Positions 9,204-38,200 of a stretch of DNA of 64,000 bases are shown here, piece after piece. Source of the stretch: Lodderomyces elongisporus (Eukaryota; Ascomycota; Pichiomycetes; Serinales; Debaryomycetaceae); contig NC_083676.1 in NCBI RefSeq assembly GCF_030384665.1, positions 806,001 through 870,000 of the forward strand. The letters are read 5' to 3'. A program made the position numbers and the translations under genes. Below the pieces are notes generated by a model that did not search any database, was not told the DNA's origin, and was given only the letters and a program-made list of their open reading frames with translations. Within the stretch, counting starts at the first letter, position 1; every line of letters begins with the position of its first letter.

Positions 9204-9277
9204 TGATCACGCCCAGGATCGAACTGGGGACGTTATGCGTGTTAAGCATATGCCATAACCAACTAGACCACGCGACC
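9204..9277 (-). tRNA. tRNA-Val (anticodon AAC), copy 1
   Basis: A 74-nt cloverleaf on the minus strand. The acceptor pairs GGTCGCG with CGTGATC (two G-T pairs), with discriminator A. The anticodon loop is CTTAACA, giving AAC. The T arm is GTTCGATCC, which is also the B box. There is no intron. Downstream on the transcribed strand is a run of eight T (A run at about 9191-9198), which serves as Pol III terminator. The retrotransposon target duplication begins 11 bp upstream of the 5' end. Confidence 0.96.
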
Positions 9278-9287
9278 TGTTTTTGAT

Positions 9288-9292
9288 GTCTG
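9288..9292. repeat. 5-bp target-site duplication, left copy
   Basis: GTCTG directly abuts the left LTR. The same five bases follow the right LTR at 13822-13826. This marks the exact boundaries of the inserted element. Confidence 0.92.
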
Positions 9293-9341
9293 TGTTCTAT
9301 ATCGGATTCAGAGAATACGTTAGAATAGAACTTATTGTTTT

Positions 9342-9423
9342 CAATAGAGCATAGCCTCTATTGTTGTCGTTCAATTGAGCATAGCCTCCATTGTCCTCGT
9401 TCAATTGAGCATAGCCTCAATTG
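9342..9423 (+). repeat. Three tandem 22-nt hairpins in the left LTR
   Basis: Hairpins at 9342-9363, 9372-9393 and 9402-9423, with an exact 30-bp period and the same six-base loop CATAGC. Arms are CAATAGAG/CTCTATTG (perfect), CAATTGAG/CTCCATTG (one mismatch) and CAATTGAG/CTCAATTG (perfect). The first and third differ by a paired change that keeps the stem. The right LTR carries the same set at 13406-13487. Confidence 0.9.
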
Positions 9424-9514
9424 TTGTTGTCTAATTTCAACATAGTAATTATGTTGTATGTTAGTTATGTTTAGGACATAACAGTTCATAGTACGAAGAT
9501 GAGAAAAGTTCGAA

Positions 9515-9520
9515 TATAAA
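9515..9520 (+). promoter_or_regulatory. TATA box of the LTR promoter
   Basis: TATAAA inside the LTR, downstream of the triple hairpin block and upstream of the structured 3' third. This is the expected place for the U3 promoter of an LTR element. Assigned by sequence and position only. Confidence 0.5.
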
Positions 9521-9759
9521 AGAAGGACTTTGCTCACTCGAATTTCGGTTTATAGTTTATTTAGAAATTAACTTGTTTTAAGAGTCAGACACCGACACAT
9601 AGTAGAAGTCTACTATAGAGTAGTTCCATATAACGTGCAGTGCGTTATATGCGAATACAAGAACTTAACCACATACACACAGATCCTTGTCGCAAGTTCC
9701 AAGGATCCCAGATCTGTCATAGAGAAATACCGCAAGAAAGGAGGATATTATAAAACATC

Positions 9760-9771
9760 TGGTAGCGTCGC
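9760..9771 (+). other. Retrotransposon primer-binding site (tRNA-iMet type)
   Basis: TGGTAGCGTCGC begins two bases after the left LTR. TGG pairs with the CCA end of a tRNA, and TGGTAGCG is the start used by elements primed by initiator tRNA-Met. The exact length depends on this species' tRNA sequence, which is not in the window. Confidence 0.7.
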
Positions 9772-10089
9772 ATAAAATTATGATATTTTTCTTGAATGTT
9801 AATGAGCCCAAGAAACCCAAATGCAGCACACACGTTGCATGAAGGGAAAGTTGAAGAACCGCATGATTTGGTTTGACCTTATAGTTGCTAAATAGTATTA
9901 AAGGTTATGGTGGTAATGTTTATCACGAAGTGACAGATGATTTGGTGGTGCGTGACGGTGCAGGAATGAACTCGTACAATGTGTACCGGGTTCGAAGGCT
10001 GACTTTAACTCGGATGAGTTAGATGAAGCTGTACAACTGACAGATGTCAGTGAATCTTAGGATTTGGAAAGTGGCTCGCATGAGTCCAA

Positions 10090-10715
10090 AGAGCGAGAGC
10101 TCTTTGAATTTTCGTGAGAGAGGTATTTGGTCTGGATAAGATCATAGCTCTATCTCCCATTGAAAATATAAAGTTTTATGTTCCGGTTGTGATGATGCTG
10201 ACTGCTGTTTAAGGTAAGGAATGCATGGCATTGCTTGATTCCGGTTCGGTTGCAGATTTGGTGCTCGCCAAGTTTGTGGAAGGGAAGATCGATAGTCTCC
10301 CTCAGGATACTTGTTTATGTGACGTGGTCGTTGCATTTGGTACAAGTTTGGTGGCCATTCTAACTTAAAGGTTTAGGTTGGAGTGCTACACAGAAAGATG
10401 AAGTCAGAGTACTTCAAGAAACAGAAAATGGCCTGAACAAGGTAGTAGGGTCTAAAGAGCTTATGCTCTTTGAAATCGCCAAGGAAATCGAGATTTGATG
10501 TGATATCGAATCTCCGAGTAGAGAACAAGAAGTTCTAGGTTCCAGTTGAGATGACGTTGCTTGCGGTAAGAACGGCAAAGGTTGCCTAACGTTGTTCTAT
10601 ACTGGTTCGGGCGAGGGTTTGGTTTGGTATAATTCTAAAATAGAATTATTTTTTTTAGTGATGGGATGATGGATAGTCTCCCGAGATATGGCTTGCGGGT
10701 GTGACAAAAGGTGTC
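10090..10715 (+). pseudogene. Decayed, tandemly duplicated aspartic protease region
   Basis: One frame near 10190-10330 reads a retropepsin-like segment with the active-site motif ALLDSGS (DSG at 10237-10245) followed by a LVLAKFVEG-type strand. It is preceded by an in-frame stop. A second diverged copy of the same stretch follows at about 10455-10715, where the active-site region reads as a degenerate TGSGEGLVW. Both copies share the flanking landmarks GTTCC(G/A)GTTG and GATAGTCTCCC. Neither is open, so this is non-functional as it stands. Confidence 0.7.
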
Positions 10716-11263
10716 ATGCAGGATAAATTGCAAGCGGACATGTAACACTAGATGTGTTACCAGAACATTGCTATCATTAGGCCGGGTTGGAGACCCTTGA
10801 TAAGCAATAGCCCTCGAAACTCACAATAACCTGTGAAGGGGCGGAACTTCGTTAATGAACATGAGGAATTAGAGATTCCAGGAACATGGACTTGTGATGC
10901 TAGAGTATGCATACAATTGGATCCGAAATGTTGGTAAATTGCATGGACTTTACAGGGATGCAGTGAGTTGAACTGTATAAGGTAAAGTTGGTATGTTCAC
11001 TTAGGATACGAAGGAGAAACTTGATGAGAATGTTTTAAGAGGGGAAGGAAGAATATGTTTGTGATTTCCCAAAAACATTATCAAGTATAGAAACGGACAG
11101 TGTCACTTCAAAAGTTGAAGGAGATCGGAATGTCCACGAAAGACGAATGGATTAAGAGAAGATACTCTCGGGAATTCAGTCGGGATTAACCTCAAGGTAT
11201 AGACAATACTAGTTTAATGAGTGAGGGAGGAACCAAGTCCGTAAGAAAGTTGGTTCATGCTGA

Positions 11264-11602
11264 ATGTGTGCGGATCATTGGTTGCTTAGTTTAACAGTGA
11301 TTGAACAGTTGATCGAAAAGGTATCAGGATATCGCCACTACTCCACGTTGGATATGACGCAGAGTCTCCATCAGAACAGATTGGATAAGGGAAGTAGTCA
11401 TGTGACAGCTGTTACAGTATTTGGCAAGAAGTATGCTTATAACGTGTTGCCGATTGGTTTTATTAAAGCTTTGGCCATGTTGCAGGAAACGGTTTCTCGG
11501 TTAATACAGAAGAGTTCGGGTTGTGTTGCTTTATCGACGATATTGTTGGTTTACTCTAGTTGTACAGAGGAACACAGGAAGTCATTGCTGTTGTTGTCTT
11601 GA
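11264..11602 (+). pseudogene. Ty3/gypsy reverse transcriptase remnant
   Basis: The fragment carries the hallmark blocks of gypsy reverse transcriptase: IEKVSGYRHYSTLDM, LDKGSSH, GKKYAYNVLPIGF and, after a gap, VYSSCTEEH. The catalytic FIDDI block is present at 11530-11544 but in a different frame from VYS, so a frameshift splits the active site. Several conserved positions are replaced (NVLPIGFIKALAM where P.GL.NAPA.F is usual). Upstream and downstream sequence is full of stops. Confidence 0.85.
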
Positions 11603-11818
11603 AGTTTTCAGAAGAATTACAGTTTACTTTCAAGAGTTCAAGTGTGAGTTGGGAGTGTCGAAGATGACATCTTTATGTCATGAAGTTAGTTTAAATGGTA
11701 CCTGAATCTCCGAAGTGCGATTGGGAATTTTCAGAAGTGAGAAATGTTTAAGGATTGGTTATGGTGAGACATTTATAAGTCGAGGATACGGATCACGGAT
11801 CATTAGTATTGTTGGTGA

Positions 11819-11910
11819 GGTTAAAAGAGAATTTCTACCGGCGGCATGTAAGCTATGTGAGCCAGGTTAGGAGAAAATTTCTACCGGAGGCATGTAAGCT
11901 ATGGGAGCTA
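11819..11910 (+). repeat. 46-bp tandem duplication inside the retroelement
   Basis: Two adjacent 46-bp units (11819-11864 and 11865-11910) share the core ATTTCTACCGG and GGCATGTAAGCTATG. By eye they differ at six positions. They lie in the decayed pol region downstream of the RT remnant. Confidence 0.85.
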
Positions 11911-13343
11911 AGTCAGCAGTTAGATAAGTCTAACGGGAGCTCCAAGGAAAGAAATAGCTTGTCATGTTGGTAGCGAAAGAGTAGTTCAAGAAGAAGGAAC
12001 TAAGGATAGGAAACAAGTGTTGTTTCACTATCAGGACTAGACTGCAGGATTAGGCAGTTGATGTTGTGTTTGGTATTGTGTTTGGATGAACACATAGTTA
12101 ACATGAATTATTAGTCATTGGAGATGACGTTATGCTCGGTAAATATTGCTAACAAGGAATTGTCCGGATAGACAATTGTAACAAAAGGATTTTAGTTAGT
12201 TACAGCTGGTAGGTAATGCAAGATGTTGGTTACTTGAGCAAGAGTCAGCAGATCATTCAAATCTACTGATGAAGTATTATTCTTTGTGAATAGATCGGCT
12301 ACAAAGACAGCTGATATGAATATTGGTTTCACTAGGAATGGATAATTGAACATGTTGCTTAGCAAGGTGTTGCAATTGGTTGACGTTTGAATCGTGGTTA
12401 ACGAATGATCAGGAAAGGTACTACGGACTGATTGTCAAAAGGTAGTAGTCACAGTTGCTTATAGAAAGCTGCGAAAGACATCATAGTTAAGGTTCAACGT
12501 TTGTTTGTCAATCGGATGCTTGACTTAGGTTTGCTTTATGTTATAGGTTCGATACTGATAGAGAGGGGACACGCAATCCTCCAGAGCTCAAGGAGTGCTA
12601 TCAAGAGGTATGAACATGACAGAGATAAAGTGTTTGGGTGCTACGCTAGTTGGGTTTTTATACTAGTGTGCTCATGGTTAGTCAAGTGGAATGCTGCTTG
12701 TGGAATTGGATTTGTTTGTGAGTTTTGAAGATACTTGGGTTATAGACAGTACTATAAGGTACGTGTTGGATGATAGCCATATGTATTTCATAGGAACACA
12801 AGTTCGCTTAGTTTGTCGATAATAGAATGCACTAAGCCAGACGGTTGGTGAAAAGGTGGAAATTCTTTAGTGTGAGAATTTGCCTTGGGCATCATTGGTG
12901 ATGCGGATTAAGGACATGAAGTCATTAAGTCCAATGGTTTAAAACGGAAAGTTGGTACAACTTTATTGGAGCGGGGGAAGAAATCCTGTCCGTTCGTATA
13001 GTTGATAATGGGATTATGCTTTCAGGAGAGGATTATTGACGTCCAGGAATATAATGGAGAATTACAATTGTGTTCATGAAAGGGTTCTAAGTGAAGAAGA
13101 CTAGCATTAAGTTAGTGGTAGATCATGGGATATATGGAAGATTTCCATTTATGGAAATAGGAGTTTGGTTCTTACTCAGGTATGTTGAGTTTGATACTAA
13201 GTGAATGGTTGTAGACCAAGACATGGTTCTACTTGTCGTCCCAAAGTCAGGGGATTGGAAGTCGCTTAGGATGTTAACACATTTGTTGCTTGTTAATTAC
13301 AGTTGGTTACCCTGAAGATAGTCTTGAAGAGGAGGTTTGATTT

Positions 13344-13353
13344 AACAAGGGGG
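13344..13353 (+). other. Polypurine tract of the retroelement
   Basis: AACAAGGGGG lies three bases before the right LTR, the usual position for plus-strand priming. It is mostly purine; the exact cleavage point is not visible. Confidence 0.55.
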
Positions 13354-13356
13354 TGA

Positions 13357-13821
13357 TGTTCTATATCGGATTCAGAGAATACGTTAGAATAGAACTTATT
13401 GTTTTCAATAGAGCATAGCCTCTATTGTTGTCGTTCAATTGAGCATAGCCTCCATTGTCCTCGTTCAATTGAGCATAGCCTCAATTGTTGTTGTCTAATT
13501 TCAACATAGTAATTATGTTGTATGTTAGTTATGTTTAGGACATAACAGTTCATAGTACGAAGATGAGAAAAGTTCGAATATAAAAGAAGGACTTTGCTCA
13601 CTCGAATTTCGGTTTATAGTTTATTTAGAAATTAACTTGTTTTAAGAGTCAGACACCGACACATAGTAGAAGTCTACTATAGAGTAGTTCCATATAACGT
13701 GCAGTGCGTTATATGCGAATACAAGAACTTAACCACATACACACAGATCCTTGTCGCAAGTTCCAAGGATCCCAGATCTGTCATAGAGAAATACCGCAAG
13801 AAAGGAGGATATTATAAAACA
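13357..13821 (+). repeat. Right LTR (465 bp)
   Basis: Same length and, by visual comparison, same sequence as the left LTR, offset by 4,064 bases. It is followed immediately by the right target duplication GTCTG at 13822-13826. Confidence 0.95.
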
Positions 13822-13826
13822 GTCTG
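13822..13826. repeat. 5-bp target-site duplication, right copy
   Basis: GTCTG, identical to 9288-9292, directly after the terminal CA of the right LTR. Confidence 0.92.
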
Positions 13827-14329
13827 TAAAACCTACTACTTTGATCAGATATATCTTTATAGCAAATCATTGTTTGTGGTTGGTAGTGACAAAAAGAGCA
13901 AAACCAGACGACAAAAGACTAATGACAAAAGACTAACGACAAAAGACTAACGACAAAAGACTAACGACAAAAGACTAATGACAAAAGACAACATGTGATC
14001 CTATTACTCTCATTACCAGAACTAATATATCTTTCTTTTTCTTTTTCTTTCTTTCTTTTTTTTTTTTACTAAGTTGGTCTAGGATTGGCATACATATTTG
14101 TGTTTTTACGTTAATTGAAAAGGAAGGTATTATTCGTTAGTTACAGTAAGTATAATAACTATAAAGACTTGGGTTATAAAGAACCTTTATTCACTACAAA
14201 AGAGATGCAAAAGGGAGGAGAACAAGCAAGAAAAAAAAAAAAGAAATGATAAAGACAAGACAGGAAAAGTAAAGGTACCGAGAATCCATACGTATCTTGT
14301 GTCACAACAATAGTTGAAAGCCAAAAAAA
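13827..14329. other. Intergenic stretch with a 14-bp minisatellite
   Basis: No gene. Unit GACAAAAGACTAAC (or ...TAAT) repeats five full times plus a partial copy at 13910-13992. T- and A-rich tracts follow. It was joined to the 5' flank of tRNA-Val copy 1 before the retroelement landed. Confidence 0.8.
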
Positions 14330-14403
14330 TGATCACGCCCAGGATCGAACTGGGGACGTTATGCGTGTTAAGCATATGCCATAACCAACTAGACCACGCG
14401 ACC
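14330..14403 (-). tRNA. tRNA-Val (anticodon AAC), copy 2
   Basis: 74 nt and identical to the copy at 9204-9277, including acceptor, AAC anticodon and T arm. Downstream on the transcribed strand a run of seven T (A run just below 14330) can terminate Pol III. The immediate 5' flanks of the two copies share a short TTTTGATGT-like block, which suggests a local duplication that predates the retroelement. Confidence 0.96.
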
Positions 14404-15333
14404 TTTTGGATGTGAAAGTAAACACCTCTAAAATCCCCTAAAAATCATTTCAAGTCATGTGATATACATAAATATATATAGCTAATTTTGACATATTTTT
14501 CTTTAAATTTCTTTTTTCTTTTTTCAGAATTAGTAGACCGTAGTGATTGAGTGTACTACGACTATAGGTTTACAGAGTAAAGCAAATGTAATTGAAACAA
14601 CAAAAAAAAAAGAAAGAACAAAGAAACTGTTTTTGAGCTATTGCGGAGGTTTGTGCATTTCATCAACATGTCACTTCCATGTTCATATAAACATTCCCTC
14701 ATCTACACAATATCTGCAGAATATCTGCAGAATACCTAGCTTGTTTCTCCTTCTTTGAACTTAAATCTAAACTCAAACTCTCTAAAGACTTGTGAAATAA
14801 TTGTTATATGAGGGAATCAAGATGCATGTTTATCCAATAAAAAGAGAGATAAAATATCTCGTCCTCGTCCTCGTCTTGGTCTTGGTCTTGGTCTTGCTTT
14901 TTGTTTCACTTTATTTATTTTTTTTGTTAGAAAAAAGAAAAATGAAAAAAAAAAAGAAACTATAAGATCCTGGCAGTAGGAGCAGTCAATCGTCACAGCC
15001 GTACTCAAGTCACCAGACCTGGAAAGAGACGCAAAGCAAAAGAATCAAGAAATGAAACAATCTGAAGAATAGTACGTATTCTTCTTCATTTGAGAAAATA
15101 CAGAAAGAATGAAATAAAAGAAAATTAAACACGAAATCTAAGAAGCAAAACAGATTAAGAAGCCCAACATTAACGTGACTGTACTACAACTTTCTTTTTT
15201 TTTTTTTTCTCTCTCTTTCTCTTTCTCTCTCTATTTTTTTTTATTGTGTTGTTTTAGTTCTTCTCTTTCTAAACCAATCAAAGCATCGAAAAGATACAAT
15301 AAGCTTGTTGTACTATTGAATGATATACAATAT

Positions 15334-20167: not shown

Positions 20168-21395
20168 GATATCATTTCCATTTCCATTTTCATCGTCATT
20201 TTCATTTTCCGTTTTCATGTCAACGTCTAAAAAGCTGATATGAAGGACTTGTACTTGACTCCATTTGTCATTTCTGTAATAGCGTTTATTTATCTTCAAT
20301 TATAAAATTGAAATTTTGTTAGTTGCTTGTAATTTAATAATAATTTTCTTAATACTAGTCAACTTTTTTATAGTTGTTCCGTGATTCTGTAGCTTGTTCC
20401 TTTTAGATCTACCAGCACATGATGGATGGAATGGTATGTGGGCTGTGTCGCACACACACAAAAAAAATGAGGTTAGAAGAAGTAAAATATATAGTTAATA
20501 ATTTAAAGTGTTTTGATTTTGTAATGAACTTTTTTGTTTTGTTTTCGTAATTTTCATGCTTTCAGAAATTATGTAGAGCAAGGTATGAATGAAATTTTGA
20601 CAACGACAAGTAAGTAGATGAGTTGAGGAGTAGAAGCAAAGAGTTAAATAACAGAAGGATACATTGTATATGTTCATGGTTGACTTGCAAGATATGTAAG
20701 TTATAAGTTCGTAATTTACACCCAAGTGTGCCACTTTGTAAGTAAAAATTTTGCATCAATTTCGCATCAATTTTGCATATGACTTTTGGTGTGCTTTTCA
20801 ACTCGTCAAACTCGCCGTCTCCATATATAGCCAAACTACTCTACACTTTGTACATGAATATACATTTACAGTGCTCGTGCTCAAACAGTGAAAACACTTG
20901 CTTCATCATTATTTGATGATACATTTATAATTTACCCATGTTCAAAAGTGCGTGGTAAGTGCTGACGTTAAATAAAGATACAGAACATCCTCAGGACTAA
21001 TTTCCTTAGCTGCGCAAAAGAATGGTGAGCGAGAGAAATTAAAAAGGAAAAAAAAAGGAAAAAAAAAAAAGAAAAGGGAAAAAGGAAAAAGTACAACGAG
21101 GAAATAAGATGGGAGACAAGAGTTCATTTCATCGACATCACAGTAAGGAAAAGACCATAAGGTTGATTGCGTTACCCAAGCGTACCAAGTAAGTTTATTT
21201 AAACACACACATGGCTTAATTAAATTTTCGCAGCAGTTGCGCTGTTTTTCAGTTGCGAAGGGATTATGGGGCCGAGGTTCCGAGAATCGAGACGTTAGGC
21301 GCTGATGGGGGAGGGGGCGGGCGTGGCGGAAAGGAGGAAAGACTCTAGACAGACGGAGCTGTTTAAAAATGGGGGTTGTCAGACCCAACAAGTAA
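20168..21395. other. 3' flank of RSN1 and tRNA upstream region
   Basis: About 1.2 kb without a supported gene. It begins with ATTTCC/ATTTTC-type repeats directly after the RSN1 stop and has unique A/T-rich sequence to about 20940. A more G-rich stretch (21270-21390) then leads into the tRNA array. A 149-codon minus-strand frame at 20942-21391 has an unconvincing composition. Confidence 0.6.
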
Positions 21396-21469
21396 GCCTG
21401 CGTGGCGAAATTGGTTATCGCTTTTGACTTCTAATCAAAGGATTCCGGGTTCGAGTCCCGGCGTGGGTT
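21396..21469 (+). tRNA. tRNA-Arg (anticodon UCU), copy 1
   Basis: 74-nt cloverleaf. The acceptor is GCCTGCG paired with CGTGGGT (with G-T pairs). The anticodon loop CTTCTAA gives TCT. The T arm is CCGGG-TTCGAGT-CCCGG. Only four T follow, two of them inside the gene, then 16 bases separate it from tRNA-Phe. Confidence 0.94.
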
Positions 21470-21485
21470 TTCTTACTTACCAATT

Positions 21486-21558
21486 GCGGCTTTAGCTCAC
21501 CTGGGAGAGCGTCAGACTGAAGATCTGGAGGTACTGTGTTCGAGCCACAGAAGCCGCA
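21486..21558 (+). tRNA. tRNA-Phe (anticodon GAA), copy 1
   Basis: 73 nt. Acceptor GCGGCTT with the matching AAGCCGC and discriminator A. Anticodon loop CTGAAGA. No intron. It lies 16 nt after tRNA-Arg copy 1 and 18 nt before tRNA-Arg copy 2. No T run longer than three follows. Confidence 0.95.
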
Positions 21559-21576
21559 CTTGTTTCACACATTTAA

Positions 21577-21650
21577 GCCTGTGTGGCGAAATTGGTTATC
21601 GCTTTTGACTTCTAATCAAAGGATTCCGGGTTCGAGTCCCGGCATGGGTT
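21577..21650 (+). tRNA. tRNA-Arg (anticodon UCU), copy 2
   Basis: Identical to copy 1 except for a compensatory acceptor-stem pair: position 6 C to T and its partner G to A (GCCTGTG with CATGGGT). A 16-nt spacer leads to tRNA-Phe copy 2, with no T run longer than four. Confidence 0.94.
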
Positions 21651-21666
21651 TATCTTTTATTATTTT

Positions 21667-21739
21667 GCGGCTTTAGCTCACCTGGGAGAGCGTCAGACTG
21701 AAGATCTGGAGGTACTGTGTTCGAGCCACAGAAGCCGCA
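21667..21739 (+). tRNA. tRNA-Phe (anticodon GAA), copy 2
   Basis: 73 nt, identical to copy 1. It is followed at once by TTTTA and a run of ten T (21740-21754), the only strong Pol III terminator in the four-gene array. Confidence 0.95.
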
Positions 21740-21754
21740 TTTTATTTTTTTTTG
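21740..21754 (+). terminator. Pol III terminator of the tRNA array
   Basis: Four T, one A, then ten T, directly after the last tRNA-Phe. The spacers inside the array have no more than four consecutive T. Confidence 0.75.
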
Positions 21755-25629: not shown

Positions 25630-26712
25630 ATGTCTGATTTTGCACCATTGAAGAATGATCTCATTCTCAGAGCAGCTAAAGGAGAGAAAGTAGAAAGAGT
25701 ACCAATATGGATTATGCGTCAAGCAGGACGATATTTGCCAGAGTACCACGAAGTCAAAGGGAACAAGGATTTTTTCCAAGCATGCCAGGATGCGGAAACG
25801 GCATCAGCTATTACGATCCAGCCTGTTGACCATTTCGATGGTTTGATTGATGCTGCGATCATCTTCAGCGACATTTTAGTGATTCCACAAGCAATGGGCT
25901 TTGAGATAAACATGGTAGAGGGTAAAGGTCCGGTGTTTGCCTCGCCATTGAGAAGTCCAGATGATCTTGCACGTATTGACTTGAACCCAGACGTCAAGGT
26001 AAAGCTTGACTGGGCATACAAAGCCATCACATTGACGAGAAAAAAATTGGATGGCAGAGTTCCGCTTTTAGGTTTTGTTGGGGCTCCATGGACGCTTTTA
26101 GTGTATATGACAGAGGGTCAAGGTTCAAAAATGTTTAGATTTGCCAAGCAATGGATATTTGAGTACACCGAAGCCGCACACAAACTCTTGCAAGCAACAT
26201 GTGATGCTTGTATCGAGTTTTTGGCTCAGCAGGTGGTTGCCGGTGCCCAAATGCTCCAGGTCTTTGAATCATGGGCCGGAGAGTTGAGCCCAGCAGATTT
26301 CAACACGTTTTCCTTACCATATTTGAAACAAATTGCATCGAGATTACCAAAGAGATTATCAGAATTGGGAATTAAGGAGAAGATCCCATTGACTGTTTTC
26401 GCCAAGGGTGCATGGTATGCTCTTGACGATTTGTGCAATGCAGGGTACGACACAGTATCACTCGACTGGCTCTATGATCCTAAAGCCGCTAGAAAGGTAG
26501 TTGGCGACAGACGCATCACTTTGCAAGGTAACTTGGACCCCGGTGTCATGTATGGTTCTGATGATGTTATTGATCAAAAAGTGAAAGAAATGATTAGTGG
26601 CTTCGGCAAGGAGAACTACATTATAAACTTTGGACACGGAACACATCCATTTATGAAACCAGAAAAGATAGAGCGCTTCTTGAAGCTGTGTCATAAATAT
26701 GGCACGGCATAA
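25630..26712 (+). CDS. HEM12: Uroporphyrinogen decarboxylase
   Basis: 360 residues (yeast enzyme about 362). Converts uroporphyrinogen III to coproporphyrinogen III by four decarboxylations in the cytosol, the fifth step of haem synthesis. The signature [10 protein letters not shown] is at residues 31-40. [16 protein letters not shown] and the C-terminal [12 protein letters not shown] are also present, so all active-site blocks look complete. The frame is open 26 codons further upstream to a GTG, but the first ATG is at 25630 and starts the conserved [10 protein letters not shown], so that start is chosen. VMS1 follows on the same strand 300 bases downstream. HEM3, two steps earlier in the pathway, is 28 kb away; there is no clustering. 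Confidence 0.97.
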
Positions 26713-27012
26713 ACTAGATGTAGCCCCGGTATAAATAGTTATGTGCTAATGTATATACGATTGCTTTTTTCTATTTTGCAATTTCCCATTCTGCTCTTCG
26801 CTTCTTGTATCTTGTATTTTGTATTTTGTATTTTGTATCACTTTTTTTTTCTCTCTCCAATGTGAAAGAAAGTTTTTCGGTACTTCAAAGAGTGGCGGCT
26901 TGAGGAAAACCAACCTACGTCATTTATTCTTATTTTCTTTGCACATCTTCATTTCTTTACATTCTTTACATTCTTTTTCATTTCTTTTCATTTTTGGTCA
27001 AGAAATTAAGCA
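26713..27012. other. HEM12-VMS1 spacer
   Basis: 300 bp holding the HEM12 3' end (TATAAATA near 26731) and the VMS1 promoter. TTTTGTA and TTTACATTC repeats. No gene. Confidence 0.6.
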
Positions 27013-28911
27013 ATGGTTCAGACATATATCTACAGCTTAACAAAGGAGTTTCTTGACTCTTTAGAGTTACTATACTTTGACATTGAAACACACAAGGTTG
27101 TCAAGGCGCCCGAAGCAGAAGTTTCGGAGTCAGGCAAGCAGAATAACGTAATCAAAGATAAGCAATACTACAAGTCAGATCTCCATCGATACAATTTGAA
27201 GCGAGCGCAAAATGACCTTGAGCCCATAAATGAGGACGAGTTTAACAAGTTGTTGGAGGCCGAATCGGCAGAAAGTGCCTCAGAGGACTCTGATGAGTAC
27301 AGTGATACCGGTAGTGATACCGGTAGTGAACACATTGGTAGTGACACCGACGGTGATGACGACAGCGAGACAGAAGGTGAGTGGAACCTAAAAGAGGGTG
27401 GCTCTATAGATGCAGAGTTGTCACACTCTAGAAAAGCCAAAAAAGTAGAAAGCTTATTACGGAAGCTCCACACCAAAGATATATTACCAGAGGAAGTTTC
27501 TAGTGGGTCACACTTGCACACAAGAAGCCCAATGGTGCTTTTCCTGTCACTGGCAGTACCGACGGATAAGGTTGTTATGTTTTACAAAGCACTTTTCACA
27601 GAAGCCGAGCTCAAAGCGCCTCTTGAAAGTTTGAAGAGGTTTCAAAATAATGGAGATGCACGCACAGGTAAATCAGCGATTTTTATGTTAGGCGGTGGTC
27701 ATTTTGCTGGTGCCGTAATATCCCATGAGCCTGTGAAAGTTAAAGGGCAGTTATTGAATGAGGAATTACCATACCTGCAGAAGATACAGTCGATAAACGT
27801 ACTTGAGTCAAAGACGTTTCACAGGTACACCACTAGAAGGAAACAAGGTGGTTCACAAGGGGCCAGTGATAACTCGCGAGGAAAAGCCATTTCGGCGGGA
27901 TCAAGCATCAGACGGTACAATGAGCAAGCATTGGCAAAGGAGGTTCGCGAACTCCTTGAGACGTGGAGGGACCATTTACGAGAGTGCGACTCCATCTACA
28001 TTAGAGCAAATGGGCCGACCAACAAGAAAGTTATCTTGGGTTACGAGGAAGCTCCGTTGGCCGTTGGTGACCCTAGAGTAAAAAAAGTGCCCTTTTCGAC
28101 AAAGAGGGCTAGTCTTTCAGAGATTAAACGGATTTGGGTTGAGTTATCCAATTTAAAAGTTCTGGATTTCCCAAAAGTCGAAACAAAAGCAAAAGCTACA
28201 TCGCTATCACCATCACCATCACCATCACCATCACTATCACGGCCACTGTCACCTGCAGCAGTTAATTCCAGTATCTCCAATGCTAGAACCGAATCATCAA
28301 AGTCGCCACAAAAGCAAGACCCGTTGACCGAAGAATTGTTGAGTGCCTTGAAAAGACAAAAGGCTCCCGCTTTTGTTAAACTAATCAAGGAACATTCCAT
28401 AGATGTCGATTCCTTCAGTTTGAGTATCCTGGACAACAATGCACCGAGTTTACTCCACTTTGCATCTGCAAATGATTTGGCGCACATGGTCCAGGTATTA
28501 TTGGTTAATTTAAAAGCATCGCCACTAGTGGTGAATAAGACAGGTAAATACCCCGCGGAGGTTTCACGTTCCAATGCCAAGAGGGCCTTTCAGATAGCGC
28601 GAAGCAAGCTTGGAGAGGCTGCATGGGATTGGAATAAGGCAAAAGTTCTTCCAGCAAAAACAAAGGAGGAGTTTGACAAGGAGGCTGAAACGAAGGAGGC
28701 CGAAATGAAGAAAGAGAAGCTTGATATAATGAAGAAACTCCAAGAGAAAGAAGCACAAGAAAATGAAGCGGCACAAGCTAAAGTACCTCAGAGCAAATCG
28801 CCCATTCCACCTGTTTCAAGAATGCTGGGATTGAATGCTGAGCAAAAGAATAGATTGATGAGGGAGCAACGAGCAAGGGCAGCCGAAGCAAGGTTGAAAA
28901 GACAAACCTGA
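27013..28911 (+). CDS. VMS1: VMS1/ANKZF1 peptidyl-tRNA hydrolase of ribosome quality control
   Basis: 632 residues. Vms1 works with Cdc48 and cleaves nascent chains off tRNA on stalled 60S subunits; it also acts at stressed mitochondria. The eRF1-like VLRF1 domain occupies about residues 170-385. It contains TTRRKQGGSQGAS, where Q282 in GGSQ corresponds to the catalytic Gln of the family. Ankyrin-like repeats are at about 440-540 and a charged helix follows. The C-terminus has a Cdc48/p97-binding VIM motif, REQRARAAEAR (R-x5-AA-x2-R). The N-terminal region keeps the family sequence KSDLHRYNLKR, but the preceding part lacks the Cys pair of the usual C2H2 finger: there is no Cys in the first 100 residues. 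The gene converges on VPS70 across a 2.9-kb gap. Confidence 0.92.
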   Translation: MVQTYIYSLTKEFLDSLELLYFDIETHKVVKAPEAEVSESGKQNNVIKDKQYYKSDLHRYNLKRAQNDLEPINEDEFNKLLEAESAESASEDSDEYSDTGSDTGSEHIGSDTDGDDDSETEGEWNLKEGGSIDAELSHSRKAKKVESLLRKLHTKDILPEEVSSGSHLHTRSPMVLFLSLAVPTDKVVMFYKALFTEAELKAPLESLKRFQNNGDARTGKSAIFMLGGGHFAGAVISHEPVKVKGQLLNEELPYLQKIQSINVLESKTFHRYTTRRKQGGSQGASDNSRGKAISAGSSIRRYNEQALAKEVRELLETWRDHLRECDSIYIRANGPTNKKVILGYEEAPLAVGDPRVKKVPFSTKRASLSEIKRIWVELSNLKVLDFPKVETKAKATSLSPSPSPSPSLSRPLSPAAVNSSISNARTESSKSPQKQDPLTEELLSALKRQKAPAFVKLIKEHSIDVDSFSLSILDNNAPSLLHFASANDLAHMVQVLLVNLKASPLVVNKTGKYPAEVSRSNAKRAFQIARSKLGEAAWDWNKAKVLPAKTKEEFDKEAETKEAEMKKEKLDIMKKLQEKEAQENEAAQAKVPQSKSPIPPVSRMLGLNAEQKNRLMREQRARAAEARLKRQT

Positions 28912-31849
28912 GGTGGAAAGAACCCCAAACACGTTAAGATCACCAAATAAATTAAGCAACCCAACAACGTCGCCTGTTACTGAACTCAAGGAAGGGGCAT
29001 GTTAACATTAAGAACGTGAAAGAACTCAAAATTCAAAAGCCAGAAAAAAAGGCTGTTGAGGTCCTACTTCAGAAATGATAAAATCAACATCTGACCCATT
29101 AGCAAGACTAATTATTTAAAACATCTATAGATATGATGATAGATTACAATATATAGTTCCGTAATAGACTAGAGTATAGATTTTCCCAATCATTGAATTT
29201 CTGAAATCTATAAGTACGATTTAACATTCGCTATGATCGTGTAAAAAGAAAAAGAAGGAGACCACCAGTCGTCAATTTTTTTCCAATGGTAGTTAACTAC
29301 AAGTTAGAACAAGAAAATTCCTCTCAAAGAGCACTTATACTTAAGCAACATAAAATAGATCCCATGGATATATGGCAAGATCAAATAATACAGATAAAAA
29401 AACATCCTCACAAATATCAATAATCAGATGACCTAGAATACTAAGATTTCATTTACAAATTACAAAATTTGAGTCAATAAAAAACAATCGACAAAATGGA
29501 ATTTGAAACTTGATCTGTTTAATGCAAGACTGGTTAATAATCTTAGTTGACGACATTACTGATGCAACATTTATCATCCACTAAAACTGGTCTGACTACA
29601 TGTAAAAAGAAACATAATAAAGCAAAATTAAACTAAAAGTACAACTTAACATACTAAATCCAAAGAGAGACCATTCATCTCGCTAACATATACGTTTCAT
29701 GTATTGCCGAAACTCAAAAAATAAAATAAAAGGAACAATTTTTAATCTGATTATTAATCGATTCTTTGAGAATTCAAAGCACAAACAAAAAAACCAACAA
29801 GACACAACAATAGCTAATTTTTTCGTCTCAAAATTAACTACAGTAGACAAGCAACAAAGTATACTAGATAGTTATTTCGCTGCATGCAACTTATTTTACC
29901 AGAAAGAAATAAATGAAAGATTTCGAAAAATACAGTAATAATTACATTTTCAATGACAATTATTTCTCTACGAAACAAATTTGCAACTGGTACAAACCCA
30001 TAACATACAAGTAAACCAATCAAAATTTTCAATCACCGATTTTTCTTGAAAACTAAATACCTAGACGTTATCTTCAATAAAAAAACTATAGAGTGAAGCA
30101 TAAATATCTTGCATTTTTGTGATATAAAAATCACCAATAAATTGTGAACTACAAAACATATCTTTGGCCGCTTTAAACAAACTGAATCAAGAATTAAAAA
30201 GTCAAGATCCCATTTAGAGCAGTTCGTAATAAATGAAAAACTATATGCCTCCAAAGTTTTGGAGTTTTCAAGAATTGAATTAACTTTTCGGACTAATGGA
30301 ATATTCGCTAATGAGTAAAGCATACATAATTAATACAAACGATAGCTTTTTAAGATTTCATTTAGAAGAAACATAAACTGAATCACAGCTAAAAAATGCA
30401 CCTATAAATCATAAATTAATCATTGATTTTGATAATGTTGTTGACACGAAATGTAATCCAAACATTAGCTTTACTACGATATGCACACAAATTTCTTACA
30501 CTCCATACTAAGGTAGAAATCCTTCGCAAATATTATTCTTTTCAAATGGGCGTTCTTTATCAGTCTCTACATTGTAAAAACCTTGATTCAGATTTCAATG
30601 CATGAAAAGAATTATTTAAATTAGAGAAGGCGTACTGCTGAACGATGCGATCGAAGATAACTTCCGCTCCTTCTGAATGAAGAAAGCCTAGGTACAACGT
30701 GGGACATACCAGTAAGCAAGTTTATATCCAAATGATTTACAATCCATTTAGTTAGTTACCTTACTCCAACCATAGCAGAGTTAAGTACTTTAGTGAAAAG
30801 AATGTTGTTCATGCGAAATATACAATTTGCAATAATTTGTTTAACATTAATGGTAATTGAAATATGATAAGAATATGCATGTCGATGATTTATTGACAAT
30901 AAGATGCTAAATTTATTTGGTCTCGCACGTTTTGGCAAGGCTACTTCAAATCGTTTGCATTACTAGTGTAAAATAAAGTAAATGAAGGATCAGTTTTTGA
31001 GCCTCCCATTCTAAGCTTGATTTGGAATAACATATTGTATTCCACTAAATATATTTAGAACAGTTTCAAACTTTATGGTAATATTGTATGAATGCAAAAT
31101 TTTGAATATCTTTATTGCGTTAAAATTATAATGGAAGGTATACTTTCTGAATTGAGATGTAATTTTATAATGAACATGTGAACTTTTGTAAACATCATAT
31201 TTTGGAAATTCTTGATATTTCTTCCTATAGGTCCGTAATCACTTTATGTTTTTTAAATTAGTATTATTTCAGGTTTTTGTAGAAGCTGCGCTTAATAAAT
31301 TTTAACTTTGATTAAATACTTTTGTCTATTGTTGTTGAATGAACAGCTGGTTTGGGTTCGTAATTATTATTTTGAATCGTTCACTATCTCAACTTCTAAG
31401 TTTCGGTTGAATTTGGTTTTAGCGACGTTTTAAATATTTGAGTTTTTATTCTTTCATTCACGGCTAATTTTGTTTTGGTATCATTATGAGAGATTCTGTT
31501 AAGTTGCGTTTTGCTAGAATGAGTCATTGGTATTACATGTTACAGTCCTCCGATGGTTTTTAATGGCAAATTAATTACTTTACTTATGAGCTTTATAGTA
31601 AATTTTCCATTTTTAACAGTGGAATATAGATGCAATTCATGTATTCCTGTGGTGTTTTATTTATTTATTTTATATTTGCTATTTGTTTTCGCCAAGATAA
31701 TGTAGGTTTGTATACGGACCTCCATTTATATTGAAAACAAAGTCTTGGATGAGGAGATTTGGTGTTTAGAGTATTAGAAAGTTTCAATACACTATAAATT
31801 TTATACAAAACTTCTAACTAATTTTCTGAACTCAATACTGAGCAAACAC
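28912..31849. other. Candidate centromere / fixed replication origin
   Basis: 2,938 bp with no supported gene, between the 3' ends of two convergent genes, so no promoter is needed here. Unlike every other gap in the window it is almost free of microsatellites and long homopolymers. Its strand composition reverses. Five hand-counted 60-base lines in the left half (29401, 29461, 29641, 29821, 30121) total A128 T85 C56 G31. Five in the right half (31201, 31261, 31321, 31441, 31501) total A70 T141 G54 C35. The switch lies near 30.4-30.8 kb, around a more G+C-rich spot at 30.62-30.72. Such reversals mark long-fixed bidirectional origins and have been reported at Candida albicans centromeres. I saw no obvious inverted repeat, but could not search exhaustively. 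Confidence 0.55.
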
Positions 31850-34288
31850 TTAAATCACTCTTTGGTGTAAGTGATGTGAGACTCTGTGCACTGTTCTGTC
31901 GAGAATTCCAATCCACTTGCTCAATCTTCCGAGATCACCATCCTCGATTGCCTCGTTCAATCCTGGCAAGTCCTGGCCTGCATAGCCTGTAAATCTTCCA
32001 CTTGCAAACAAAATGTGTTTGAACCATGGTCGAGTGTCCAACCCTTCGTGGTGCAAAAAGTTTCGTTCAAAATACTTCAATGATCTGTTATGTTTCCGGA
32101 TCTTGAGATGCAACCAAATCTTGCCAGGAAGGGACAAATTCAAGTAATTATCGGCCTGGTCTTGGAGATGAAGCGATTTCTCGTCAAACGCTTGAGCTGA
32201 TTTCTGAAATCCATGCAAAAGGTGTAAAGTTTGGTCAAGTCTCTGTCCTAAAGTTGCAGTTTTCTTTGCTTCGAAACAATTGAGGCCATGTGTTAATCTC
32301 ATTTGCTGTTTTTTACGCATCGGACATGTGTATTGGCTTTGGGTAACGTCCCTGATAAATGTGTCCTCATCCAAGAGGTGGGATCCGCGGTAATCAGAAA
32401 AAGCTGTTGTCTTGTTGAGCCATTCGGCTGGAACACGTTGCGACGTCTTCTCAAAGTAGTCGATCAAATTAGAAGCGTACGACTCTAATCTAAACTGAAT
32501 AACTTCTTTTTCACTTAATCTTAATGCTAGCAATGCCAAATACTTTGCTGCCAAATTATGGTACACAAAGTTCTTGTCCCCAAACTTTTCCATCCAGTGG
32601 AAGGAGTCGTAGTTGGAATGATAATGATAGATGGGATCTTTCTTTCCGCCACCGAATCCCAAATCCACGGATGGAATGCCCAAGTGCTCAAGGTATACTG
32701 TATAATCAGATCCGCTTCCCAAGGATTTGATGGCGTCGCTTCCGTGTACTTTTACGTAATGATCATACAATGACCCACCTTCTGGGTATTCCAACTCTTT
32801 AGCGACATCTAGCAAAAGGTTGTTCAACACTGGTGATGAGCCCAAGCCCAAGTTTTTGCCACTCACAGAAACATCGAGGTTCAAGTATGCGACAACCTCG
32901 CGCTGGTACTTTTTAGCAAAATACTCTCCTTGCTCGGTAGAGCCGAGCAAACCGTACTCTTCGCCATCATAACTATGGAGCACAATTGTTCTCTTAAACT
33001 TGTGTCCCTTTGCCTTCAATGTACCCAACGCACGAGCAACCTCAAGCAATGTGGCCGAGCCACTATTTGGATCTCCTGCGCCGCCTTTTATCCATGCATC
33101 TCTATGGTTTCCCAATATTATGACCTCGTCGGCTTTCTCACCTTTAATCTCACCGTATACATTCCACATGGTGGCATATTTGAAGTCTTGGTCGCTATAC
33201 AAGTTGAGAGAGTACTCAGAAGGACCTGTCGTATACTCAAAGCCATCAAGCTCTCCTTCGAATCCTTTGACTTTTGCACCCTTGCCGTTTAGTTTCTGTA
33301 AAATAGGCTTGACCTCTCTGTATGAAATAGGCAATACAGGTATCTTGCCAATACTTGTGTGTGGGTCCTTGCGTTCAACCCCGGGCTTTGACGCATATCC
33401 AGGAGTGGTTGGGTCACCAGGTGCTGAGCCTTCCCCACCCAAGAATTGAACACTTCCTCTTTGGACCGAGCTTTCTTGCCTTGCTGGGCCGTGGGGATAT
33501 TGCTTATAGCCATTCTTGGGAGTAATACCAAAGTCATCTCCAGGGTCAGAGTATATCAAGACACCAACTGCACCTCTATCTTGGGCAAACTTCACTTTAA
33601 GACCACGAAAGATTTTACCATATCTCACAACTACAATCTTGCCAGTCACATCCACGTTATGTTCCTTCAACGCTTCAAAGTCACTCTTTGTTCCATAGTT
33701 TGCATAAACATACTGAGCAGTAACGTTTCCATTGGCTGCATAGCCCAAGAAAGTTGGCACTGTATTGTTATGTGTTGTTGGATCTTCATCAATAGAATCC
33801 TCTTTCAATGGAGCTGTATAAACGATTTGTTCATGCTTATCCAACAAGCTCAAGCTATGGTCTTTTGGGTAGCTTGCCAAAATCTCGTAGGAGTCAATTG
33901 TTGTATCAAAGCCATACTCCAGAAATTTTTGCTCTGTCCATTCAACGAGCGGATAGTTGGTCCCGGCCAAGTGTGCTTCAGCAGTATACTTTTGAGACCA
34001 GTTTCGTGCATAGTTCAGCTCAAGAGCATCAAGAACAATCTGTGCTGGTTCAACAAGGGCCAAGTTACCAATACTTGGTGGTGTGCTTATTGCAAACAAC
34101 CTGTAGAATAGGTATAGCAACCCTCCAATCAACAATAACTTCAACGGCCCTCCGTGAGCATTTGCAATCCTCTCTTGACTAACTTGTTGGAGGTGTCTAT
34201 TAGGCTTCGTTTTTGTATCCTTTTCCATTTCCATTTCCATGGTCTGTTCCTTTACTTTTTCCATCTCCATTTCCTTTTTGGCTTTCAT
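31850..34288 (-). CDS. VPS70: VPS70-type M28 peptidase (glutamate carboxypeptidase II family)
   Basis: 812 residues from the first ATG (34288); the frame is open further upstream only to a GTG. Yeast Vps70 is about 811 residues and affects vacuolar protein sorting. It is a type II membrane protein: a short Glu/Lys/Met-repeat cytosolic tail, one membrane segment near residues 48-68, a protease-associated domain, then an M28 peptidase domain. Zinc-site motifs are present: GNHRDAWIKGGAGDP (near 392), SYDGEEYGLLGSTE (near 440), LNLDVS, and YHYHSNYDS (near 555). A transferrin-receptor-like dimerisation domain closes the protein. Because the ligands are retained it may be active, unlike transferrin receptors. 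TRE1/TRE2-like relatives are the main alternative. An E-box TCACGTGA lies about 137 bp upstream. Confidence 0.88.
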   Translation of the reverse strand: MKAKKEMEMEKVKEQTMEMEMEKDTKTKPNRHLQQVSQERIANAHGGPLKLLLIGGLLYLFYRLFAISTPPSIGNLALVEPAQIVLDALELNYARNWSQKYTAEAHLAGTNYPLVEWTEQKFLEYGFDTTIDSYEILASYPKDHSLSLLDKHEQIVYTAPLKEDSIDEDPTTHNNTVPTFLGYAANGNVTAQYVYANYGTKSDFEALKEHNVDVTGKIVVVRYGKIFRGLKVKFAQDRGAVGVLIYSDPGDDFGITPKNGYKQYPHGPARQESSVQRGSVQFLGGEGSAPGDPTTPGYASKPGVERKDPHTSIGKIPVLPISYREVKPILQKLNGKGAKVKGFEGELDGFEYTTGPSEYSLNLYSDQDFKYATMWNVYGEIKGEKADEVIILGNHRDAWIKGGAGDPNSGSATLLEVARALGTLKAKGHKFKRTIVLHSYDGEEYGLLGSTEQGEYFAKKYQREVVAYLNLDVSVSGKNLGLGSSPVLNNLLLDVAKELEYPEGGSLYDHYVKVHGSDAIKSLGSGSDYTVYLEHLGIPSVDLGFGGGKKDPIYHYHSNYDSFHWMEKFGDKNFVYHNLAAKYLALLALRLSEKEVIQFRLESYASNLIDYFEKTSQRVPAEWLNKTTAFSDYRGSHLLDEDTFIRDVTQSQYTCPMRKKQQMRLTHGLNCFEAKKTATLGQRLDQTLHLLHGFQKSAQAFDEKSLHLQDQADNYLNLSLPGKIWLHLKIRKHNRSLKYFERNFLHHEGLDTRPWFKHILFASGRFTGYAGQDLPGLNEAIEDGDLGRLSKWIGILDRTVHRVSHHLHQRVI

Positions 34289-35286
34289 AGTGTACGGTTT
34301 GATTAGCTTGGGAACACAATTCAAAAACTTGCACTTGGGTTCGACAATTGTGGACACTCCCCTATTTATAACAATAGTGCCGTGTGGGACTGTGGATGCA
34401 AGTGAAAAGCAATTGCGGCTATCTTCACGTGATGTTATATATATATATACATATCTCTATATATATATGTGTGTTTGTATAAATAAATGTGTGTGCATAT
34501 ATTTGTATCGGTGTATCGGTGTTTTGCACACGTCTTTTCTGTACTATCTCGTCCAATTTCCTTCGAGTCCCATATCTGCCTGTCTTTACTTCCACACACA
34601 AACACTCACACCCACTTCCCACCGCAATTCCATCACATCGCACCACATTGCACCACGCTCGCTTTTATCTCCCTTCCAAAAGCCTAGAAGCACAAATGCC
34701 CAAAATCTATCACAATATATATGAGTAATTTGCGTCACTACTATCTTTTCTTTGCTTAAAGAATAATCTACATACTATGGCTCTTGTTAAAACGTATTTT
34801 TCCACTACTATTTGTCATCTTTGCCGTGCGTCTCTGCCTCGCAAGTAGTTTGCAGTCAACCCGTCAAAATGCGCGCACATCTAGTATATGCAAATTAGTG
34901 TCGAATCGGCGACGGGGTAAACACAATACTAGATTACAATCTCTGAACTGATTGTTACTGCTTCAAATGCTCAAGGAAATAAAAGTGTTTGCTTGATGGT
35001 TGAAGCTAAAAGATTTTATCCCGGTGGATTTGTTGCTTTTTTCTTATAGAAAAGAGAGAGAGATTATTTTCTCTTTGATAAGTGGTAATGAAGAAAACAA
35101 ATTTTTAAATGATTTTTTTGCTAAAAAATGACTCAATATATAATGCTCATGGTTGTTTTTATTTTCATTTCCATTCTTTTCATTTTCCAGTTGTTTATAA
35201 TAATCGCTATACAAAACTAATTCTACTAGTACCAGCACCTCTGAAATTCATCGAGTAAAGTGCTCAAGATGGCCAAGTGCAATGTC
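34289..35286. other. VPS70 upstream region
   Basis: About 1 kb, containing the VPS70 promoter (read leftward) and the 3' flank of the zinc-cluster gene. It holds the palindrome TCACGTGA at 34425-34432 and TATA-like ATATATATATACATA at about 34438-34452. No gene. Confidence 0.55.
34425..34432. promoter_or_regulatory. TCACGTGA palindrome (Cbf1-type E-box)
   Basis: Perfect 8-bp palindrome with the core CACGTG bound by Cbf1-like bHLH factors in yeasts. It lies about 137 bp upstream of the VPS70 start. The site is seen; the factor is inferred. Confidence 0.4.
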
Positions 35287-38200
35287 TTAAACCCCATTTG
35301 GTTCATCCATGCTTCCAAATAATGCCTTTTGAGCAGCTTCAAAGTTCTGGATCTCGTCCTTTAATTGGTTCAACGACAACTGCTTACCTGCGTGGGCTTT
35401 TTCCAAGTACTTATAAAAGTAATTAACTGCCGGTTCCACTTTGTAGTCGAATGAGTACATGCCCCTGCTAAAGTCAAATTCATAAGAGTGATTAATATTT
35501 GTGAAAAAGCCGTCCTCGTATAAAGGTTGATTTCCCCCGCTCAACCCTTCATACTTTTGCCGATACTCGTGTATTCTCACCTTTTGGTTGTGATTCTCGT
35601 GCTCGATTATTTTACGATACTCCTCGGTCCTGCCATTCAAGTGTGCACCAAAATTTATCAAAAGCGGATAGTTGTAAATGTTGACTATTGTATTGATGGA
35701 AAAGTTTGTGATCATTATTTCTTTAAAATCAATTTTTGCAGGCTTCAAGTGAACGATACCGGAAAACTGCTGACCGTCTATTATCGGGCCCTCAGCAGCC
35801 ACCAGCTCGAGGTATTGACCACCAGTTTCGAGTATCGATGTTGATGACATGTAATGCGAAATTATTTGCTGTCTAGTATTGAAAAACTTGATGATTCTTA
35901 GCAATTTGGCAGACAAGTTCGTGAGATAGTGATATTGGCTGTCGTCAGCCACATCGGATCGAGAATATGCAAACAATTTATAGTTAAAATCGACTTGAGG
36001 ATAGATTGCATTCCAAGTATCAATCAAATACGTACTTCTTATGATGGGAAATACATTTGATAAAGCCTTCGCTGTTGCAACATAAAAAAGGTAAAATGTT
36101 CGTTTCAATGGCGACATCTCGCTTCCCATTGAACGAGAATAGCTCGGAATAAGTTTGAGCCACCTATTGATGAACTCGTATAGCAAAGAAGGTGAGAAAT
36201 ATCGTATCCCGCTCTCCGTGTCTGTATCGCCATTTTTGGTTTTGAAATATTTATCAATCTGCAAGAAGCGTGGATACAATGTAGTGATGAGATCATTCAA
36301 AAAACTTTCCAATGCAAGAAAGTTTTTGATAATGTACCCATTTCTTTGTGAGGTCAACTCGGGGTTATAATTGATAAATGTCTTGAACTGAACTAGATTC
36401 GTATGCAACTCAGCAATGACATCAAACTTGTAATCGGGAGCAACAGCCGTAGACGTGTGGTTCCTTAATGCGAATATTATGAATTGCAAAGTTGGTGAAA
36501 TCTCTTCAAAGCCAGTATATCTATCCAAACAGTTCCACAACAATGACGCCGATCCTGCGTGGAACAAAGTCACAGCTTTGGCACTAGCTTGTGTATGCAG
36601 AAACCGAGACCACCCAGAAAGCCACGAAATAATGGTGGAGCTTTCAATGTCGACACCAGCAATTGATTCGCGCAAGTCTTTAATGAGATTGCCAAAATAG
36701 CTATATGATTTCTTTGTCAAGATCTTTTGGATTTCTGGTGTAAAGCACGTGGTGCTACTTGTCGAAGAAATTGATTTGTTACACACTTTGAGAATCACGT
36801 TCAACGACCTATCCATGAAAAACGTAAAGAAAATGAAATGGAGCACCAATGCTTGGGTGAAATTGCTCATCCACATTTTCTTGTCATCTTCTAGGGTCCA
36901 GTCGGGGTTTGAAAGCAGCATCAGGCAGTTGTAAGTCCACTTGCACTTTGAAGACCCCTTGGTAAATAATGGATGAAGACTTTGAGAACGTTTTAAAGTA
37001 GGAAAAGTCTTTAAGCACAATATAGCATTGGGCAATGCTTTGTCCATGTCTATCTTTCTTGATAAATCCAGTCTTTCTGGAGCAGATAGTTCGTAAATAT
37101 TGATTCCAAAATGCTGGTTGAAAATCGATGTTGAGTTTTCAAAGCTGTCAACGGAGCGGGTGTCAAAATCTTGTACATCAGTCTTTGCTTTTGTGTCTGT
37201 GTCTGTGTCTGTGTTTGCGTTTGCGTTTGCGTCTGCGTTTGCGTCTGCGTCTGCGTCTGTAGTTGCGTTCGTGTTCGTGTTTGGGTCTGTGTTTGTGATT
37301 GAATATTTAACAGCATCTGTGTCTACTATATTAGCTTCATTTGCAGTACCATTCAAGGTTGATACGCCGTGTCTTCCAACTTGGCCCCATTTCGGCTGCT
37401 TTCTTCCGTTTCCAAACGTTTCTGGTAGGTGCAACCCTTGAGACGACGATAGTTTGCTCATGGCGTCCTTATAAAGAGCCAAGTTCAAATCGACATCTTC
37501 AAGTGGAACATTAAGTAATTTGTCCCACTCACTTTCTTGCATAGGGATAAATAAATTGGGAGGAGTTGTGTCATTCTCCGATACATTGGGGATCTTTGAT
37601 GCTGAGTAATTCTTGAACAACTCATTTGTATTGTTAGGGGATTCCGAAAAGGGTGACGAGTTTAGCGAAACAGCTTTGTTGCTTGTGGGAGGAGTTATTG
37701 TAGTCAGAAACCCTTGAAACAACTCTCGCGTGTTGGATTCGGCAAAGTTTGGTGGCACTTGCAAACTTGTCAGATCGTAGTGCTGTAGTGCGGGACCCAA
37801 CCTCATGCGTTTTGTTTTATTAGGAAAAGTATCTGGAGCTGAGTTGTGAAAAGGCTCAAATTTCGACGTGACATTGGTTGTGTTGTTATAGCTCTTGTCT
37901 CCTAAAACACTATTACCACCATTGTTTAAGCTTGTATTTGGTACATTTTGAGATGTAGTAAGTGCAACTGCTGCTGAGGGTCGTCGCCTTTTACCACTTG
38001 CTGTAACTATAGGTTGTTCATTGCTGCTCAGTATACCTTCGCTGGCTCCTTCTTCCATCTCTTCGCTTGCTATTTGTGCGTGTTTTCTTCGTAGAGCATC
38101 CAATTTCTCTTTAGGATAGTCAAGGTAACCACAATGGTAGTTCTTTTTGATACAGTTCAGGCATGACGGGAGCTCTTCGGAACACTTGATCCTCTTCTGT

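Follow-up and report, generated by a model that had tools for sequence, protein, structure and literature searches.

A 2938-nt gap between two convergent genes on contig C4 of Lodderomyces elongisporus is likely to be the centromere of this chromosome: its sequence points to a small regional centromere of the Candida albicans type, without inverted repeats, which would be kept epigenetically. It also fits, in its traits, the centromere candidate published for L. elongisporus on this chromosome, with which it is probably identical. As set out below, the gap contains no detected gene or RNA, is unique in the genome and lacks simple repeats, and its strand composition reverses so that the two sides mirror each other.

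An ORF-free gap between convergent genes

We analysed a stretch of 64,000 nt (C4:806001-870000, hereafter the window, whose coordinates are used unless C4 is named) from the genome of L. elongisporus NRRL YB-4239 (16,086,460 bases, 8 contigs), for which GCA_030384665.1 is the PacBio assembly (PMC10586162). The species is a CUG-Ser1 yeast close to the C. parapsilosis group, to which it serves as outgroup (PMC7263194). ORFs are taken here as ATG-to-stop reading frames and not from annotation, and an ORF-free gap is one with no ATG ORF of at least 100 aa. Two samples of gaps were used for comparison, in both of which some gaps are truncated by the ends of the stretches: the main sample comprises the 32 ORF-free gaps that reach 1.2 kb in the window and C4:1-200000 (264 kb, simple sequence masked), and the extra sample comprises 13 gaps of 900 nt or more, drawn from eight further 10-kb stretches (80 kb), seven of which lie on other chromosomes. 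The skew-flip scan covered 274 kb of the 2058 kb of C4 (13%) and 70 kb from the other seven chromosomes.

A preliminary description of the window had reported a gene-free gap of about 2.9 kb between convergent genes, and its coordinates proved exact, with 2938 nt devoid of any ORF of at least 100 aa. The gap and its neighbours are composed as follows:

27013-28911, + strand: VMS1-like gene, left neighbour, directed into the gap (bVLRF1 domain; some named relatives are called VMS1)
28912-31849, no strand: candidate regional centromere, an ORF-free, simple-repeat-free gap (ORF calls, masking, one genome match)
28912-30770, no strand: left arm, A + C excess on the + strand (base counts)
30771-30911, no strand: flip zone, putative centre or origin (cumulative minima)
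30912-31849, no strand: right arm, T + G excess on the + strand (base counts)
31850-34288, - strand: VPS70-like M28 peptidase / transferrin-receptor-like gene, right neighbour, directed into the gap (domain, relatives)

In the window and C4:1-200000, 20 convergent gaps measure 100 nt or more (median 408.5 nt), and this one is the longest; the next longest measure 2844 and 1970 nt, the latter holding four tRNA genes. Its GC content is 30%, and many other gaps are no higher (range 0.28-0.38). When the genome was searched with the gap DNA at E up to 10, skipping simple repeats and very common words, the sole match was the gap itself; as a check for a point-centromere motif this gave no DNA match elsewhere in the genome, by a search that would miss a short motif. 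The preliminary description had also proposed a self-alignment to look for flanking inverted repeats. No long ones were present up to about 2.4-3.2 kb from the gap: of 37 pairs between 26.5 and 35 kb, none of the 25 longest had an arm above 30 nt, and arms were at most 20 nt where both lay in the gap, although this search can miss repeats with insertions or deletions. Four short inverted repeats were found within the gap, against 2.2 expected, and as many occurred in 65 of 300 simulations.

We also compared the longest contigs that carry relatives of VMS1 and VPS70 in other yeasts. These were of equal size for the two genes in C. oxycetoniae, S. coipomensis, P. carsonii and M. farinosa, and differed in C. 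jiufengensis, C. pseudojiufengensis, S. passalidarum, S. amazonensis, S. xylosifermentans and S. tanzawaensis.

Strand composition reverses within the gap

The reversal noted in the preliminary description was confirmed, in that an A/C excess on the left gives way to a T/G excess on the right, turning at about 30.8-30.9 kb. No window of the gap gives exactly the base counts that it quoted for two 300-nt samples, although those at 29955 and 31222 come within 2 counts in total. GC skew, about -0.24 at 29.4-30.2 kb, reaches +0.25 at 31.4-31.8 kb, and AT skew falls from +0.26 to -0.31. In the left arm, GC skew is about -0.13 and AT skew +0.22 (over 28912-30400), with z values of 6.8 for A-T and 3.1 for C-G. 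The cumulative minima lie at 30771 (GC), 30911 (T-A) and 30777 (combined, G+T minus A+C), and the mean-corrected change points at 30771, 30415 and 30530, respectively; as the two estimates differ, the centre of the flip is placed to about 0.5 kb. The change-point statistic of 4.18 was reached in none of 2000 Markov simulations (maximum 2.34).

The two sides of the flip resemble each other as mirror images. When 1070 nt on either side of 30775 were compared, the left side was at a base-composition distance of 0.03 from the reverse-complemented right side and of 0.31 from the right side read directly; the corresponding trinucleotide distances were 0.21 and 0.46. With the axis at the gap midpoint, the trinucleotide mirror preference was highest in this gap among the 14 gaps of at least 2.1 kb (0.104), but with the runners-up so close (0.096 and 0.064) the mirror is marked only when it is taken at the flip point.

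Among the 32 masked gaps of the main sample, a strong switch of this sign was found only here (4.18; next positive value 1.69), and the highest change in the same direction among the 13 gaps of the extra sample was 2.32. A flip of like size and opposite sign, driven mainly by GC (Z -4.05; GC -5.28, T-A -1.16), occurs in the gap that contains much of an LTR element. In raw sliding windows, with neither masking nor removal of coding DNA, equal or larger flips were seen, for example at window position 5492 (opposite sign) and at C4:27258, 37555, 50037 and 133237, and the raw flip was therefore dropped as a discriminator. These flips presumably come from coding skew and low-complexity DNA; the flip of the gap stands out only within ORF-free, repeat-masked DNA.

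The flip is local, and the neighbouring genes give no significant extension of the skew. Within 26 kb, GC skew at fourfold sites was +0.06 where genes run co-directionally and -0.21 where they run head-on, which has the sign that replication predicts but was not significant in a gene-level permutation (2931/20000), and fourfold T-A skew did not differ between the two classes (-0.04 and -0.06).

The LTR element (9293-13656, about 4.4 kb) lies about 15 kb to the left of the gap and is recent, but apparently non-coding or broken: its two 300-nt LTRs are 100% identical, G strongly exceeds C, and no open frame is longer than 112 aa. It is flanked by two tRNA-Val(AAC) genes found by ARAGORN (9189-9281 and 14315-14407, 94% over 93 nt), both of which are missing from the Rfam list at gathering score. 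Elsewhere in the window, a tRNA-Arg(TCT)/tRNA-Phe(GAA) pair is tandemly duplicated (21395-21740, a 181-nt unit in about two copies).

A simple-repeat desert

The lack of microsatellites, by which the gap had been set apart from every other long gap, was borne out by DUST-like masking, which found 0% low-complexity sequence in the gap and 5-76% in the 31 other gaps of the main sample. Tandem Repeats Finder called no array between 28711 and 34457. Runs of at least six A or T were at 0.75 of expectation (the mean of 30 dinucleotide-preserving shuffles), compared to 1.07-2.40 in every one of the 20 other gaps that reach 1.5 kb, and short 2- and 3-base repeats numbered 2 against 4.0 expected, while the other gaps each had at least 2.4 times their expectation. 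In 14 of 15 parameter settings, no simple-repeat-free, ORF-free run in 344 kb, the LTR element aside, was as long as the gap; in the exception (ORF cut-off 150 aa, threshold 1.75), the left end of C4 gave the longest run. When the ORF cut-off is lowered to 60 aa, the gap is divided by small ORFs and the repeat-free run shrinks to 0.9-1.5 kb. As a rough extrapolation, an exponential tail fitted to 142 runs of at least 200 nt, leaving out the gap itself and the window runs starting at 8601-14999 (the LTR element), puts the number of runs of 2938 nt at 0.0035 per genome. The body of the LTR element is likewise free of simple repeats, and hence the desert alone is not specific.

Two ORFs of the window without a Pfam domain, of 874 aa (2112-4736) and 923 aa (35287-38058), contain short tandem repeats with periods that are mostly multiples of three.

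Origin, RNA or relic

The best of the alternatives, although an unlikely one, is that the gap is no centromere but a very efficient, long-fixed replication origin, with forks leaving from about 30.8 kb and a mutation bias producing the flip in a region that has no kinetochore. Both the direction of the flip, with G and T on the presumed leading strand, and the mirror composition would agree with this, and a supplementary legend of Koren 2010 names two internal C. albicans origins with a weaker skew (PMC2924309). However, such an origin would not account for a region that is 2.9 kb long and free of both genes and repeats, and according to the same paper C. albicans origins in general are no stronger in skew than non-origin sites (PMC2924309). 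Matches to the ACS with at most one mismatch were also at chance level (9 against 9.6 expected, none exact), though the motif used is that of S. cerevisiae.

Less likely again is a transcriptional source of the skew, in the form of a long non-coding RNA or of read-through from the convergent VMS1 and VPS70 genes, the transcribed strands having an A + C excess. Convergent neighbours would indeed yield a mirrored pattern, and Ola 2020 doubted two of the L. elongisporus candidates of Koren on account of strong transcription (PMC7263194). Read-through or 3'-UTR composition was nonetheless rejected, since the sense strand downstream of stop codons, in averages around genes computed without the gap, has a GC skew of +0.20 and +0.12 in the first and second 100 nt (AT skew +0.02 and -0.04), which is opposite in sign to the GC skew of the left arm; read-through from the neighbours is thus not an explanation of the flip. 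A known structured RNA was rejected because nothing in the gap reached the gathering score of any Rfam family; a snoRNA model, with 24.6 of 48 bits, was the one match at E up to 1. The gap has no exact match to the telomere repeat of at least 10 nt and is therefore not an obvious telomerase RNA, which was rejected as well.

A decayed gene or mobile-element relic, once coding and hence repeat-poor, with two relics in opposite orientation making up the flip, is the least probable: it could draw on the equally repeat-free body of the LTR element, on a first 600-nt piece of the gap whose 3-periodicity of 3.6 is one that genes also show (1.3-8.4) and exceeds the 90th percentile of 89 long-gap pieces (2.5; maximum 5.0), and on a 96-aa ORF, the longest in the gap, with an equally long one arising in 29 of 500 simulations, but the other seven (overlapping) pieces score 0.2-1.7, a genome search at E up to 10 gave no second copy of any part of the gap, and the LTR element differs in composition (GC 0.39, T and A nearly equal). 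The 96-aa ORF had no relative at E up to 1 in a search that needs shared 5-residue words, which one candidate had, and of five small ORFs compared with Pfam, one gave two sub-threshold matches (E 0.028 and 0.05) and four gave none. A coding gene or pseudogene was accordingly rejected, as neither significant relatives nor periodicity past the first piece were found.

Comparison with known and predicted centromeres

For this species the centromere reading has a published precedent. In Koren 2010, every C. albicans centromere showed a flip of GC and AT skew, with G and T enriched on the presumed leading strand, and the centromeres of L. elongisporus were predicted from skew, with one distinctive pattern per chromosome (PMC2924309). 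Of the nine L. elongisporus candidates considered by Ola 2020, six were held likely and three, on scaffolds 9, 7 and 10, were doubted, one because it lies beside rDNA and two because they lie in strongly transcribed regions (PMC7263194). C4 (2,058,218 bases) is the fourth longest contig (C1 has 3,597,007 and C3 2,328,861 bases), so that the old scaffold is unlikely to have been 7, 9 or 10 if scaffolds were numbered by size. The published candidates lack inverted repeats and are mostly unique sequence (PMC7263194), and the C4 gap resembles them in these respects as well as in its intergenic position, its joint GC and AT flip and its species, the strain being presumably the same. It differs in its desert and its mirror composition, of which the available portions of the two papers make no mention. 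As far as we found in the open-licence literature, L. elongisporus has predicted centromeres but none mapped by experiment.

The small regional centromeres of C. albicans and C. dubliniensis are likewise gene-free and unique, with GC and AT flips in the same direction. In the reports consulted, however, the gaps of C. albicans measure 4-18 kb with 3-5 kb of Cse4, compared to 2.9 kb for the C4 gap, some of its centromeres have flanking repeats, and its GC jump is far larger (74%, PMC3459929) than the change from about -0.13 to +0.08 between the halves of the C4 gap. C. lusitaniae and C. auris have AT-rich centromeres (Clavispora type); those of C. auris are reported to be ORF-free over 2,081-2,576 bp, unique and repeat-free, and skews are reported for C. 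lusitaniae and C. fructus (PMC8262905). C. parapsilosis and C. tropicalis, of the same clade, have one kb-sized intergenic core per chromosome, but theirs are inverted-repeat centromeres, and the C4 gap has no long inverted repeat. A further difference separates it from the retrotransposon-cluster centromeres of S. stipitis and D. hansenii, with Ty5-like elements or LTRs in the core: the gap matched no other sequence of the genome, the LTR element of the window included.

The centromeres of C. auris are also reported to lie in GC3 troughs (PMC8262905), in contrast to the C4 gap, for which no such trough was found: the nearest two genes on each side (25630-38058) have a GC3 of 0.44-0.45, while the median of 60 ORFs from the left end of C4, each of 180 aa or longer, is 0.38. 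Across 17351-50464, the GC3 of genes is mostly 0.43-0.50, with one at 0.35. The suggestion in the preliminary description that this may be the centromere stands in most respects at the level of sequence, being favoured by kb-sized, gene-free, unique DNA, by a joint GC/AT flip in the C. albicans direction, by the lack of recognisable coding sequence and known RNA, and by the precedent in the same species, and is weakened by the missing GC3 trough.

A search for the other seven centromeres was made through TOM40 of C. albicans and NTH1/NTH2 and RMD1 of S. cerevisiae, which we take to be centromere neighbours. Genes of the DUF155, Porin_3 and trehalase families were located in the genome, and the search gave no centromere. 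One of the three DUF155 genes of the genome (RMND1/Mrx10/Sif2 family) lies in the window at 56368-57501; RMD1, of the same family, presumably adjoins CEN4 in S. cerevisiae, which is a weak lead on a conserved centromere position. A supposed link between UTP20 and C. albicans CEN5 was wrong, as UTP20 is on chromosome 3.

Proposed mechanism and implications

In the centromere that we propose, CENP-A (Cse4) nucleosomes would cover most of the 2.9 kb, and an early origin at about 30.8 kb would fire in nearly every S phase, its forks moving outward. Over long times, strand-biased mutation would then enrich G and T on the leading strand and lead to the mirror composition, and the lack of promoters, together with a presumably rapid turnover of the DNA, may keep out the poly-A/T and microsatellite tracts of ordinary gaps. 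We lean towards replication as the cause of the skew, and give another centromere-linked strand bias a smaller but still substantial chance; according to Marsolier-Kergoat 2012, the skew jumps of C. albicans are too large and too local to stem from replication (PMC3459929). The repeat desert is the part of this picture that, as far as we found in the open-licence literature, is not in print.

In summary, this is a precise candidate in a gapless assembly, given with its neighbours and its flip point, which makes the prediction directly testable. It may be, although we would sooner expect otherwise, that in this yeast, rich as it is in microsatellites, centromeric DNA is not only strand-skewed but also kept clear of simple repeats, with CENP-A chromatin or constant turnover removing slippage tracts or preventing them, and that a repeat desert plus mirror skew can be read as a centromere mark from sequence alone. 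If so, the two traits should recur together once per chromosome on all eight, and would sort the real centromeres from the three Koren candidates doubted by Ola. A recurrent desert would then provide a second, independent sequence mark, and would raise the question of why no microsatellites form in centromeric DNA.
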